Notes under the pieces: model-generated
The model's database searches: none
The model's input: only the letters and a program-made list of their open reading frames with translations
What the model was told of the DNA's origin: nothing
Shown: piece by piece, positions 35,344-38,490 of the stretch
Numbering within the stretch: position 1 is the first letter of the stretch
Layout of the letters: every line of letters starts with the position of its first letter
NCBI RefSeq assembly: GCF_002240355.1
Contig: NZ_CP016353.1
Span: forward strand, 372,001-436,000
Direction: 5' to 3'
DNA from: Prauserella marina
Lineage (GTDB): Bacteria; Actinomycetota; Actinomycetes; Mycobacteriales; Pseudonocardiaceae
DNA length: 64,000 bases
Program-made: the position numbers and the translations under genes

Positions 35344-36642
35344 GTGGAGCAACCGACCCCTGTCACGCCGACCGCCGCCGACCCTCTCGACGCGACCGCG
35401 CGTGAGGAGAGCAAACGGCGCGGCCTTCGCAGGATGAAGCTCGTCGCGCTGTCCTTCCTGCTCGGCGCGACCGTCATCTTCCTGTTCATGAGATGGGCCG
35501 AGTCCCAGGGCTGGCCCGCGTGGGTCGGATACGTGCGGGCCGCCGCGGAGGCGGGCATGATCGGCGCGCTCGCCGACTGGTTCGCCGTCACCGCCCTTTT
35601 CCGGCACCCGCTGGGGATCAAGATCCCGCACACGGCGATCATCCCGAACAAGAAGAACGTGCTGGGCAGCAGCCTCGGCGACTTCGTCGGCTCCAACTTC
35701 CTTTCCGAGACGGTGATTCGCGACAAACTGCGCAGGGTCGAGATCGCGCGCAGGGGTGGCGAATGGCTTTCCCGTGAGGAGAACGCGGAGCGGGTCACCG
35801 CCGAGTTGGCAACCGTCGTCAGGGGAGCGGTCACGATCCTGCGGGACGAGGATGTGCAGGCGGTCCTCGAACAAGCCGTCGTCCGCAGGGTCATCGAGCG
35901 GCAGTGGGGGCCTCCCGTCGGCAAACTGCTCGAACAGGTGCTGACCGACGGCGCCCACTACCGGCTCGTCGACATGATGTGCGACAGGGCTTACGAGTGG
36001 GTGCGCGACAACCACACCGCCGTACTCAGAGTCGTGTCGGACAGGGCGCCTTCCTGGTCGCCGAAGTTCGTCGACGAGATGCTCGCCGACAAGGTCTACG
36101 GCGAGGTGCTTGCCTTCACGTGGGCGGTGAAGACCGACGTCAACCACCCCATGCGGCTCGCGCTCGACCGGTTCCTCGGCGAATTTGCCCAGGATCTGCA
36201 AAAGGACCCCGAGACGATGGCGCGGGCCGAGCAGGTGAAGATGCAGCTCGTCGAGCACCCCGAGGTGCAAAAGCTGATCGGCTCCGCGTGGACGACGGCG
36301 AAGGACATGCTGCTGACGGCGGCGGAGGACCCTTCGAGCGAGTTGCGCAAGCGGGTCACCGACGGCTTGCGTTCGCTCGGCGAGCGCTTGATCTCCGATG
36401 CCACGCTGTCGGCGAAGGTCGACGGCTGGGTGGAGAGCGCGGCCACCTACGTCGTGAACCACTACTCGGCCGAGATCACCACGATCATCACCGACACGGT
36501 CGAGCGCTGGGATGCCGATGAGACCTCCCGCAAGGTCGAGCTACAAGTCGGCCGCGATCTGCAATTCATCAGGATCAACGGCACCGTGGTCGGCGCGCTC
36601 GCCGGACTCGTCATCTACTCCGTGGCGCAGGCGGTGTTCTGA
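35344..36642 (+). CDS. DUF445 family membrane-associated protein
   Basis: A 432-aa DUF445 protein. An N-terminal membrane segment (MKLVALSFLLGATVIFLFM) is followed by the diagnostic AAAEAGMIGALADWFAVTALFRHPLGIKIPHTAIIPNKK (in part: GALADWFAVTALFRHPLG). A long helical domain follows, and a C-terminal membrane segment (GTVVGALAGLVIYSVAQAVF). Function is unknown; the topology suggests an inner-membrane protein with a large helical body. It is followed after 4 nt by the cyclo-ligase family gene, so the two are cotranscribed. Confidence 0.88.
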   Translation: MEQPTPVTPTAADPLDATAREESKRRGLRRMKLVALSFLLGATVIFLFMRWAESQGWPAWVGYVRAAAEAGMIGALADWFAVTALFRHPLGIKIPHTAIIPNKKNVLGSSLGDFVGSNFLSETVIRDKLRRVEIARRGGEWLSREENAERVTAELATVVRGAVTILRDEDVQAVLEQAVVRRVIERQWGPPVGKLLEQVLTDGAHYRLVDMMCDRAYEWVRDNHTAVLRVVSDRAPSWSPKFVDEMLADKVYGEVLAFTWAVKTDVNHPMRLALDRFLGEFAQDLQKDPETMARAEQVKMQLVEHPEVQKLIGSAWTTAKDMLLTAAEDPSSELRKRVTDGLRSLGERLISDATLSAKVDGWVESAATYVVNHYSAEITTIITDTVERWDADETSRKVELQVGRDLQFIRINGTVVGALAGLVIYSVAQAVF

Positions 36643-36646
36643 GGCC

Positions 36647-37387
36647 ATGGCCGAACTCGACACCGGGGTCAGCGCCGCGAAGCAGGCGGTGAAGGAACAC
36701 GTGTGGGACACCCTCGAACAGGAAAGGGTCGCGCTCTTTCCGGGTGCGAGGAGGCGAATTCCGAACTTCGTCACCGCGGAGGAGGCCGCGGCGATGCTCG
36801 CGGCGCAACCGGAGTGGGCAGCGGCGACGGTCGTGAAGGCCAATCCGGACAGTCCCCAGCTGCCGGTGCGCTCCAGGGTGCTCGCCTCAGGCAAGTACCT
36901 CTACATGGCGGTGCCGAAGCTCGCGGCCTCTCAGCCCTTCGTACTGGTCGATCCGGCAAGGCTGACCATCAGTCCCCGTAGGGCGGCTGCCAAGGACTGG
37001 GCGCTCTCGGTCGGAGAGCCGGTCGCCGTCGCCGACCTGCGGCCCGTCGATCTGGTGGTGTGCGGTTCGGTCGCGGTCAACCGGCTCGGCGCGAGGATCG
37101 GCAAGGGCGGAGGCTACGCGGACATCGAGTTCGCGCTGCTCGTCGACGCGGGCCTCGTCGACGAGCGCACCACGATCGTGACGACGGTGCACGAATCGCA
37201 GGTCTTCGACGAGCCGCTGCCGGAGACCGACCACGACTTCCGGGTCGACGTGATCGTGACCCCGGACGAGGTCATCAGGGTGCCGGTGACGAAGCCGAGG
37301 CCGGGACTGATGTGGGACCAGCTCTCCGAGGAGAAGATCGCGAGCATTCCGGTGCTCGCCGCGCTGCGGCCCGAACAGCCCGAGTAA
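36647..37387 (+). CDS. 5-formyltetrahydrofolate cyclo-ligase family protein
   Basis: A 246-aa protein of the 5-FTHF cyclo-ligase-like fold. The N-terminus has AAKQAVKEHVWDTLEQERVALFPGARRRIPNF and VVKANPDSPQ; the C-terminal half has VDLVVCGSVAVNRLGARIGKGGGYADIEFALL, the family's GKGGGYxDxE nucleotide-binding signature. This is the longer variant common in actinobacteria rather than the canonical 190-aa enzyme, so folate activity is uncertain. Downstream lie DnaA-box repeats. Start ATG 36647 is 4 nt after the DUF445 stop. Confidence 0.85.
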   Translation: MAELDTGVSAAKQAVKEHVWDTLEQERVALFPGARRRIPNFVTAEEAAAMLAAQPEWAAATVVKANPDSPQLPVRSRVLASGKYLYMAVPKLAASQPFVLVDPARLTISPRRAAAKDWALSVGEPVAVADLRPVDLVVCGSVAVNRLGARIGKGGGYADIEFALLVDAGLVDERTTIVTTVHESQVFDEPLPETDHDFRVDVIVTPDEVIRVPVTKPRPGLMWDQLSEEKIASIPVLAALRPEQPE

Positions 37388-37425
37388 CTGCTGATACTCG
37401 GAAGTGGCCACCCGCCCGGGGGAGG

Positions 37426-37474
37426 TTATCCACAGTTCGCCCAGTTATCCACGGAGTTATCCACAGGTGGATAG
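37426..37474 (+). promoter_or_regulatory. cluster of three DnaA boxes
   Basis: TTATCCACA at 37426-37434 and 37457-37465, and TTATCCACG at 37445-37453, all on the same strand within 40 bp. An imperfect inverted box (CTATCCACC read on the minus strand, 37466-37474) follows. A perfect palindrome CCTGTGCACAGG lies 15 bp on (37490-37501). The cluster sits between two convergent genes, so a promoter role is unlikely; DnaA titration is the simplest reading. dnaA and dnaN are not nearby, so this is not evidence for oriC. Confidence 0.7.
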
Positions 37475-37516
37475 CGCGATCGGGGCGACCTGTGCACAGG
37501 GAGCGACCAGGCCCGC

Positions 37517-38014
37517 TCAGGGGCGAGTCGCGTCCCCGCCCGACCGCTTGCGGAAGGCGCGGGCTTTCTCCCTGTTCCCGCACACCGCCATCGAGCACCA
37601 GGTGCGAGAGCGGTTGCGGGAGTTGTCGAAGAACGCCCACCGGCAGGTGTGGGCCGGGCAGATCTTGAATCGTCGCCAGTCGCCTCGGATGGCGATCCTC
37701 GCCGCGGCCGCGAACACCGCTCCCGCCGCCGTCGACGCGGTCAGGTCGGGGCCATGCTCGGTCAGCACGATTCCGACCGGAACGGCGGACTGCTCGCCGG
37801 GTCGCTCCTCGATGTGAACGGTGTCGTCCCCGATCGCGGCGCGCAATCCGGCCCTGAGTCGCATGGCCTCCGGCAGCGGATCGGGCGTGAGGTGCCGGTC
37901 GTGTGCCCACGCGTGCCACTCGTGCCGGGTGAGCAGCACGTCGGTGCCTTCCTCCAGGTCGAAGGTGTTGAGGAATTCGATCACGAGCTCGACATCGCCC
38001 GAGTGCGCCGCCAC
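37517..38014 (-). CDS. CGNR zinc-finger regulator (second copy)
   Basis: A 165-aa CGNR protein. The ABATE-type N-terminus begins VELVIEFLNTFDLEEGTD. The zinc finger reads FKICPAHTCRWAFFDNSRNRSRTWCSMAVCGNREKARAFRKR, with Cys ligands in CPAHTC and CSMAVC. GTG 38014 is assumed; an upstream extension runs into the operator-like repeat. It diverges from a VOC family gene 83 bp away, mirroring the CGNR-hydrolase pair at 24.5 kb. The VOC gene is its probable target. Confidence 0.88.
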   Translation of the reverse strand: MAAHSGDVELVIEFLNTFDLEEGTDVLLTRHEWHAWAHDRHLTPDPLPEAMRLRAGLRAAIGDDTVHIEERPGEQSAVPVGIVLTEHGPDLTASTAAGAVFAAAARIAIRGDWRRFKICPAHTCRWAFFDNSRNRSRTWCSMAVCGNREKARAFRKRSGGDATRP

Positions 38015-38036
38015 GTCACCAGTGTAAGTCGAATGA

Positions 38037-38061
38037 TGGTTGCGCCCAGGATGCGTAACCA
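38037..38061. promoter_or_regulatory. inverted repeat between second CGNR regulator and VOC gene
   Basis: TGGTTGCGC (38037-38045) pairs with GCGTAACCA (38053-38061) with one mismatch and a 7-nt spacer. The same 7-nt spacing and AACC/GGTT core occurs at the other CGNR locus. Probably the autoregulatory operator. Confidence 0.55.
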
Positions 38062-38097
38062 CCATAATTCTTTAGCAAGTTACTTGGAGGTCAAGAT

Positions 38098-38490
38098 ATG
38101 AGTGCACCGACGCAGGCAACCGAGCCGAGGTCGATCACACTGGGGGCTGTCGCGCTGGACTGTCCCGAGCCCTACCGGCTCGCCGGGTTCTACGGCTCAC
38201 TGCTCGGCTGGAAGATTCAAGAGGGAGACAAACCGGACGACGACTGGGTCACGCTCGTCAATCCCGACGGTGGCACCGACATTTGTTTCCAGCGCGACCC
38301 CGAGTACAAGCCGTCCACCTGGCCTTCTCGCGAGCGCCAGCAGATGCTGCACCTCGATTTCCACATTCCGGATCTGCTGGCCGAGCGGGAAAGGGTCCTC
38401 GCGCTGGGTGCGACCCTGCTCGACGACAAGCCCGAGCGGTTCCACGTCTACGCCGATCCCGACGGGCACCCGTTCTGCCTGTGCTCCTGA
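38098..38490 (+). CDS. VOC (glyoxalase/bleomycin-resistance) family protein
   Basis: A 130-aa vicinal-oxygen-chelate protein with ITLGAVALDCPEPYRLAGFYGSLLGWKI (start GAVALDCPEP) and the metal-side residues in MLHLDFHIPDL and HVYADPDGHPFCLC. This subgroup (DUF/Glyoxalase_6-like) usually has unknown substrate. GGAGG precedes ATG 38098. Its divergent CGNR regulator suggests substrate- or stress-induced expression. Confidence 0.88.
   Translation: MSAPTQATEPRSITLGAVALDCPEPYRLAGFYGSLLGWKIQEGDKPDDDWVTLVNPDGGTDICFQRDPEYKPSTWPSRERQQMLHLDFHIPDLLAERERVLALGATLLDDKPERFHVYADPDGHPFCLCS

Follow-up and report, generated by a model that had tools for sequence, protein, structure and literature searches.

A conserved triplet of DnaA boxes with fixed spacing outside oriC in Prauserella marina: a candidate datA-like site for restraint of replication initiation

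A 64,000-nucleotide stretch of the Prauserella marina chromosome (C1:372001–436000 of a 6.99 Mb genome in two contigs; hereafter the window, in whose numbering positions are given unless prefixed C1) contains three same-strand DnaA boxes in a short intergenic gap. Comparison with related genomes indicates that this triplet, conserved with fixed geometry, is probably a selected element and not a product of chance. Conserved boxes at fixed spacing outside oriC suggest that the site holds back or adjusts replication of the chromosome. On balance we favour a high-affinity DnaA-binding site, proximal to oriC, that would restrain initiation as datA does in Escherichia coli. This reading draws on the sequence, its conservation, the fixed geometry, the position, and a box spacing shared with dnaA and with some origins, from which we infer both DnaA as the binder and an effect on initiation.

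Box 1 (TTATCCACA, 37426–37434, + strand) and box 3 (TTATCCACA, 37457–37465, +) match the DnaA box exactly, and box 2 (TTATCCACG, 37445–37453, +), 3 bp ahead of box 3, is near consensus. An earlier reading of the letters without database searches (the sequence-only reading) had reported this set, two TTATCCACA and one TTATCCACG in one orientation, and all three were found in place. They lie within 40 bp at steps of 19 and 12 bp, with spacers of 10 and 3 bp, and the G+C content of the cluster is 47.5%, compared with 66.8% for the window. In the review table of PMC4285127, the high-affinity box is entered as TTATCCACA for Bacillus subtilis and as TTGTCCACA for Mycobacterium tuberculosis and Streptomyces coelicolor.

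The cluster had been judged unlikely to arise by chance, and simulation bore this out, though the number of boxes in the window did not. Near-boxes (≤1 mismatch) numbered 5 across the window against a shuffle mean of 2.24, and 13 of 100 shuffles reached 5, so the count alone is unremarkable. When the window was simulated 4000 times with a first-order Markov model, three same-strand boxes (≤1 mismatch) in 40 bp never occurred (0/4000), and two within 40 bp occurred in 6 runs. Two further features of the sequence-only reading, a weak inverted box (CTATCCACC, 37466–37474, − strand, two mismatches) and a 12-bp palindrome (CCTGTGCACAGG, 37489–37500, no strand), are both present, but neither was found when the matching region was inspected in the genus's three other genomes. 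Both therefore probably lie outside the element, and the palindrome was ruled out as a working part.

Poor conservation in close relatives would have spoken against a functional cluster; the opposite was found. In the three other genus genomes the triplet sits at this junction too and keeps its 19- and 12-bp steps (4/4 in total), box 2 ending in C in two of the three, and there are syntenic copies in seven genera. A search for the layout TTRTCCACA-N10-TTRTCCACN-N3-TTRTCCACA returned matches in 32 of 390 family genomes and 9 of 46 genera, always once per genome, and the reversed pattern matched in 0. By genus label, the layout was present in g1 (4/4), g33 (7/7), g24 (10/12), g66 (2/2), g20 (2/2), g63 (1/1), g15 (2/80), g19 (2/7) and g31 (2/6). 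A dispersed repeat was rejected, given the single copy per genome wherever the layout was found. Synteny, defined as a position beside DUF445 or CGNR genes, held for 28 of the 32 matches (27 in the examined flank and G026 via a longer stretch); the four g19 and g31 matches (G153, G154, G082 and G297) were non-syntenic. An order-wide search found the layout in 12 of 397 genomes, 12/79 within the family and 0/318 outside it.

Because the box columns of an alignment of these matches are fixed by the search pattern, they count as no evidence. Columns left free by the pattern were assessed in a 27-row alignment that omits the four non-syntenic matches and the syntenic G026. The base before each of the three boxes was G in 27/27 syntenic loci, the two bases after box 3 were G in 26/27 each, and a G-rich run preceded box 1. 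The last base of box 2, also unforced, was C in 14 loci, G in 12, T in 1 and never A, while position 3 of box 1 was A in 24 and G in 3. Farther than ~30 bp upstream or ~60 bp downstream of box 1, mean column conservation was ~0.40–0.47, and column conservation delimits a footprint of ~52 bp around boxes 1–3 (37418–37469, +). The alignment rows are related and hence not independent of one another.

An unbiased test took the best triplet downstream of DUF445 in 70 of 99 DUF445 loci, with 140 reversed controls. The layout was recovered within two mismatches in 16/70 loci, compared with eight mismatches for the best of the reversed controls. Thirteen were perfect; the other 3, all from g15, departed from the pattern at two positions, in each case within box 2, and shared one place, 44 bp past DUF445. 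G022 and G026 were scored as misses because their DUF445 gene is 2–4 kb from the cluster. Two boxes 19 bp apart were kept in G012 (g10) and G089 (g26), and the other 52 loci had triplet scores close to or no better than background, with single boxes or pairs near the gene end in G116, G071 and G021. Of 14 loci inspected for the box 2–box 3 pair, 10 were in the DUF445/VOC neighbourhood; the four others were in G082, G009, G073 and G004, of which only G082 had the full triplet. A chance cluster or a decayed remnant without function would accord with the shortness of the element, with the purely genomic nature of the data and with recurrence of the layout in unrelated metagenome bins (see below). 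Against it stand the synteny in seven genera, the fixed spacing, the retention of unforced bases, the 0 reversed controls and the 0/4000 simulations, which together make it extremely unlikely.

The position of the cluster agrees with its earlier description as lying outside an origin. dnaA stands at the start of C1 (DnaA-domain match at C1:667–1152), and the cluster, at C1:409426, is ~409 kb downstream of it; adjacent to neither dnaA nor dnaN, it does not qualify as oriC. The dnaA–dnaN gap holds eight boxes at ≤2 mismatches and zero perfect ones, versus two perfect boxes in the cluster. The position of dnaA was looked up in 20 of the 28 syntenic genomes. Cluster and dnaA shared a contig in 14/20, the other 6/20 having them on different contigs, and in 14/14 the cluster lay 240–513 kb downstream in the reading direction of dnaA, or ~4–9% of the genome. 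The non-syntenic copies of G082 and G297 were ~595 and 552 kb from dnaA, on the opposite side.

Boxes were also counted genome-wide, as had been proposed. Both TTATCCACA (23 copies) and TTGTCCACA (74 copies) exceeded their reversed controls (7 and 32, respectively). C1 has 22 TTATCCACA sites, which group into 19 loci; the first 250 kb of the contig contain 7 of these loci (1.4 expected, P = 0.00025), a span that excludes the cluster under study; within 420 kb, cluster included, there are 8 (2.3 expected, P = 0.001). Both spans were of our own choosing. Enrichment of TTGTCCACA was weaker: the 250-kb span held 11/64 loci, where 4.7 would be expected (P = 0.006).

The spacing of the cluster recurs close to replication genes. 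Just upstream of the genome's own dnaA is a tandem pair, TTGTCCACA + GTATCCACA, whose 12-bp step matches that of boxes 2 and 3, and the same step occurs once among the weak dnaA–dnaN boxes. Of 11 loci reading TTGTCCACAGAGTTRTCCACA, four (in G023, G084, G061 and G094) fall in the dnaA–dnaN interval and one (in G008) just upstream of dnaA, and the remaining 6/11 had no DnaA or DnaN match in the stretch examined. A second 31-bp cluster is found ~9.7–9.9 kb before the DnaA-domain match in 4/4 genus genomes (here C1:6842669–6842708), where the order of the 3- and 10-bp spacers is reversed and CTGTGCACA is the middle site; here it sits between convergent amidase-like and GNAT-like genes (names assigned by eye). 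A third box group, a 13-bp pair, occurs 24–37 kb after dnaA, again in 4/4 genus genomes. A TTATCCACA/TTGTCCACA pair 13 bp apart (C1:36806–36827), near a crgA-like gene (by eye), is followed by CTGGGGATTAGTCACACTGTTGTAATTCGCTGTCAAGC, which is identical in 4/4 genus genomes and may be a separate element.

The sequence-only reading had proposed a datA- or DARS-like locus, and only the datA-like part fits the geometry. In the passages of PMC5742627 on these loci, the essential boxes of E. coli datA face one direction, two being strong and one weak, and support oligomers of three DnaA-ATP, while the boxes of oriC arrays are 2–4 bp apart. The present cluster resembles datA, as outlined in parts of PMC5742627 and PMC4585315, in comprising several non-coding boxes outside but near oriC at a conserved relative distance. 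The boxes are likewise unidirectional with constrained spacing, two consensus and one weaker, with a 3-bp gap. It differs in size: functional datA spans 183 bp, an IHF site being required for its activity, whereas here three boxes occupy 40 bp. A DARS-like element that reactivates ADP-DnaA is a very unlikely alternative on the same comparison. Box I of the DARS1 and DARS2 cores of E. coli is opposite to boxes II and III in the account of PMC5742627, whereas all three boxes here are on the + strand, with no inverted box I. The shared direction was found in four genus genomes by an unconstrained both-strand scan; in the layout matches it is set by the search pattern.

Given the datA-like directionality and the misfit with DARS, capture or inactivation of DnaA once the site has been replicated appears the most likely mode of action. 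Three DnaA molecules could assemble head to tail. Two of them would form a close pair across the 3-bp gap, on boxes 2 and 3, and the other would occupy box 1, which is some three helical turns away from box 3. Being near oriC, the site would be copied soon after initiation. The doubled site may then draw DnaA off the weaker oriC boxes, or aid DnaA-ATP turnover. Either effect would restrain re-initiation, in the manner of datA in E. coli.

Loci of this kind had been called little described in this family by the sequence-only reading. Gram-positive bacteria do offer reported cases: passages of PMC5742627, PMC4585315 and PMC10950094 cite groups of DnaA boxes close to oriC in S. coelicolor and B. 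subtilis that are reported to repress untimely initiation. These and the present cluster are alike as groups of DnaA boxes outside but near oriC in Gram-positive bacteria; the present cluster differs in lying beside DUF445 and in being known from comparison. D78 is the name of an oriC-near DnaA-box cluster of the S. coelicolor/B. subtilis kind, with higher affinity than oriC. If DnaA binds, the triplet would be a compact, conserved further case, and compact clusters outside oriC would be an old feature of the group and not a Streptomyces peculiarity. In our view, the ways in which high-GC Gram-positive bacteria keep initiation in check are poorly known. The ~52-bp footprint offers a precise, conserved target that is deletable or movable in one step, and its conservation supplies a ready set of species for comparison.

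The boxes occupy a 129-bp gap in which a 5-formyltetrahydrofolate cyclo-ligase-family gene (36647–37387, +, Pfam PF01812), the left neighbour, converges on a CGNR zinc-finger gene (37517–38065, −, Pfam PF11706). The ends of the two genes, at 37387 and 37517, confirm the convergent flanks noted earlier. Upstream is the DUF445 gene that anchors the locus (35344–36642, +, Pfam PF04286), and the next gene past CGNR encodes a glyoxalase-like (VOC) protein (38098–38490, +, Pfam PF18029). A promoter role had been thought unlikely for this junction, and no sigma-70-type promoter pattern was found at 37100–37900, in a scan blind to other actinomycete promoter types. The same interval gave no intrinsic terminator pattern (a G+C stem, then a T run), and an Rfam search of the cluster region gave no match up to E = 1. 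An RNA element, a promoter and a terminator were rejected on these grounds.

DnaA on the boxes could instead act as a roadblock, stopping transcription where the two genes converge, and not as a regulator of initiation. This would suit a convergent junction in which no intrinsic terminator pattern was found, and the second 31-bp cluster is likewise between convergent genes here; the title of a 1989 EMBO J paper cited in PMC10950094 refers to orientation-dependent termination by the DnaA/box complex. The cluster nonetheless outlasts changes of neighbour. The cyclo-ligase gene was in the fetched flank of just 7/32 layout matches, and DUF445 is ~2.2 kb from the cluster in G022 and ~3.9 kb in G026. 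CGNR was not found in the flank of G384, G388 or G389, where the nearest tested right-hand gene reads along the boxes. The fixed 10/3 spacing would also be needless for a pure terminator. We consider the roadblock unlikely. The cyclo-ligase-family gene had a match in 42/60 relatives, and among its 13 closest loci boxes were present in the 4 genus members, while the 9 outside the genus lacked a triplet beside the gene. It was dropped as an anchor in favour of DUF445; its protein, used as a query in a collection of 84,980 genomes, found nothing.

The 9-mer of the cluster also appears in a second arrangement. Among 15 same-strand TTRTCCACA pairs within 60 bp in the genome, ten, all on C1, were exactly 18 bp apart, compared with ~0.0003 exact pairs expected at any one spacing. 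Genes after nine of the ten pairs were assigned from our own choice of open reading frames and Pfam, the CpaE/Ssd-like name being given by eye. They comprise a DUF559 gene; UPF0102/YraN, with DprA farther along; an M23 peptidase; an SSB-family gene; a ComEA-like gene and, after it, a Competence-domain (ComEC) gene; RecA; a SAF-domain gene whose RcpC/CpaB match falls below the curated cut-off; a T2SSE ATPase (TadA-like); and a CpaE/Ssd-like gene. Of the family genomes searched, 98/100 had box pairs within 41 bp, with one control match overall, and among the pairs listed 17–19-bp steps were frequent in several genera, alongside other steps. Three genomes had far more TTRTCCACA pairs within 41 bp, G004 (108) and G073 (61), both of g2, and G031 of g29 (87); the next of the 100 had 37.

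The phased pairs share with the cluster the 9-mer, the same-strand tandem arrangement and the genome, and differ in their spacing of 18, their location ahead of genes and the base favoured at position 3. Position 3 was A in 66/81 cluster boxes versus G in 16/20 phased-pair boxes of this genome, a contrast whose P value of 4 × 10−7 is inflated by kinship of the cluster rows. The pairs, with their DnaA-box-like operator, may mark a regulon for competence and recombination. The cluster boxes, too, might be operators of another regulator, the reader of the 18-bp pairs, perhaps driving an unannotated RNA. The number of exact pairs, most of them leading into uptake or recombination genes, speaks for such a protein. 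The steps of the cluster are 19, 12 and 31 bp as opposed to 18, and position 3 is mostly A as opposed to G. There is also no recognised gene start on the strand of the boxes before the VOC gene, and neither a promoter pattern nor an Rfam match was found. These differences make a second regulator at the cluster quite improbable.

More speculatively, the DnaA box of Pseudonocardiaceae may be a two-job code, in which oriC-proximal clusters hold DnaA back and 18-bp pairs put uptake and recombination genes (comEA–comEC, yraN–dprA, ssb-like, recA and Flp-pilus genes) under DnaA, linking replication state to competence. We think this doubtful as a whole. No report of a DnaA-box motif before actinomycete uptake genes was present among the literature matches listed, a weak negative. 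The phased pairs raise a separate question, namely what controls competence in actinomycetes.

Several findings weigh against the favoured reading. The strict layout is absent in 358/390 family genomes as well as in all 318 genomes outside the family covered by the order-wide search, so that it would be a lineage-specific device. A layout search across 84,980 species genomes yielded 40 stretches: 20 with DUF445, CGNR or aminotransferase genes nearby, 3 from named Pseudonocardiaceae without them, and 17 from metagenome bins. These 17 bins are unrelated, most are titled as other phyla, and their spacers are often A+T-rich; one of the stretches (L293) adjoins a dnaA. Because the layout occurs in such bins, geometry alone fails to define the element. 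The conserved distance from dnaA follows in part from gene synteny and is not independent of it. Because the same 9-mer stands in 18-bp-phased pairs before DNA-uptake and recombination genes, another protein might read it.

Some minor observations concern other parts of the genomes. Additional DnaA-domain matches beyond dnaA were present on several contigs, 7 in G002 and 4 in G003; we take these to be, perhaps, IstB-like transposon ATPases. A 2-kb piece of the second P. marina contig had no match in a plasmid search. At C1:6664085–6664362, boxes in direct and inverted orientation are densely grouped, together with a GAGTTATCCAC-AG-GTGGATAACTC inverted repeat.
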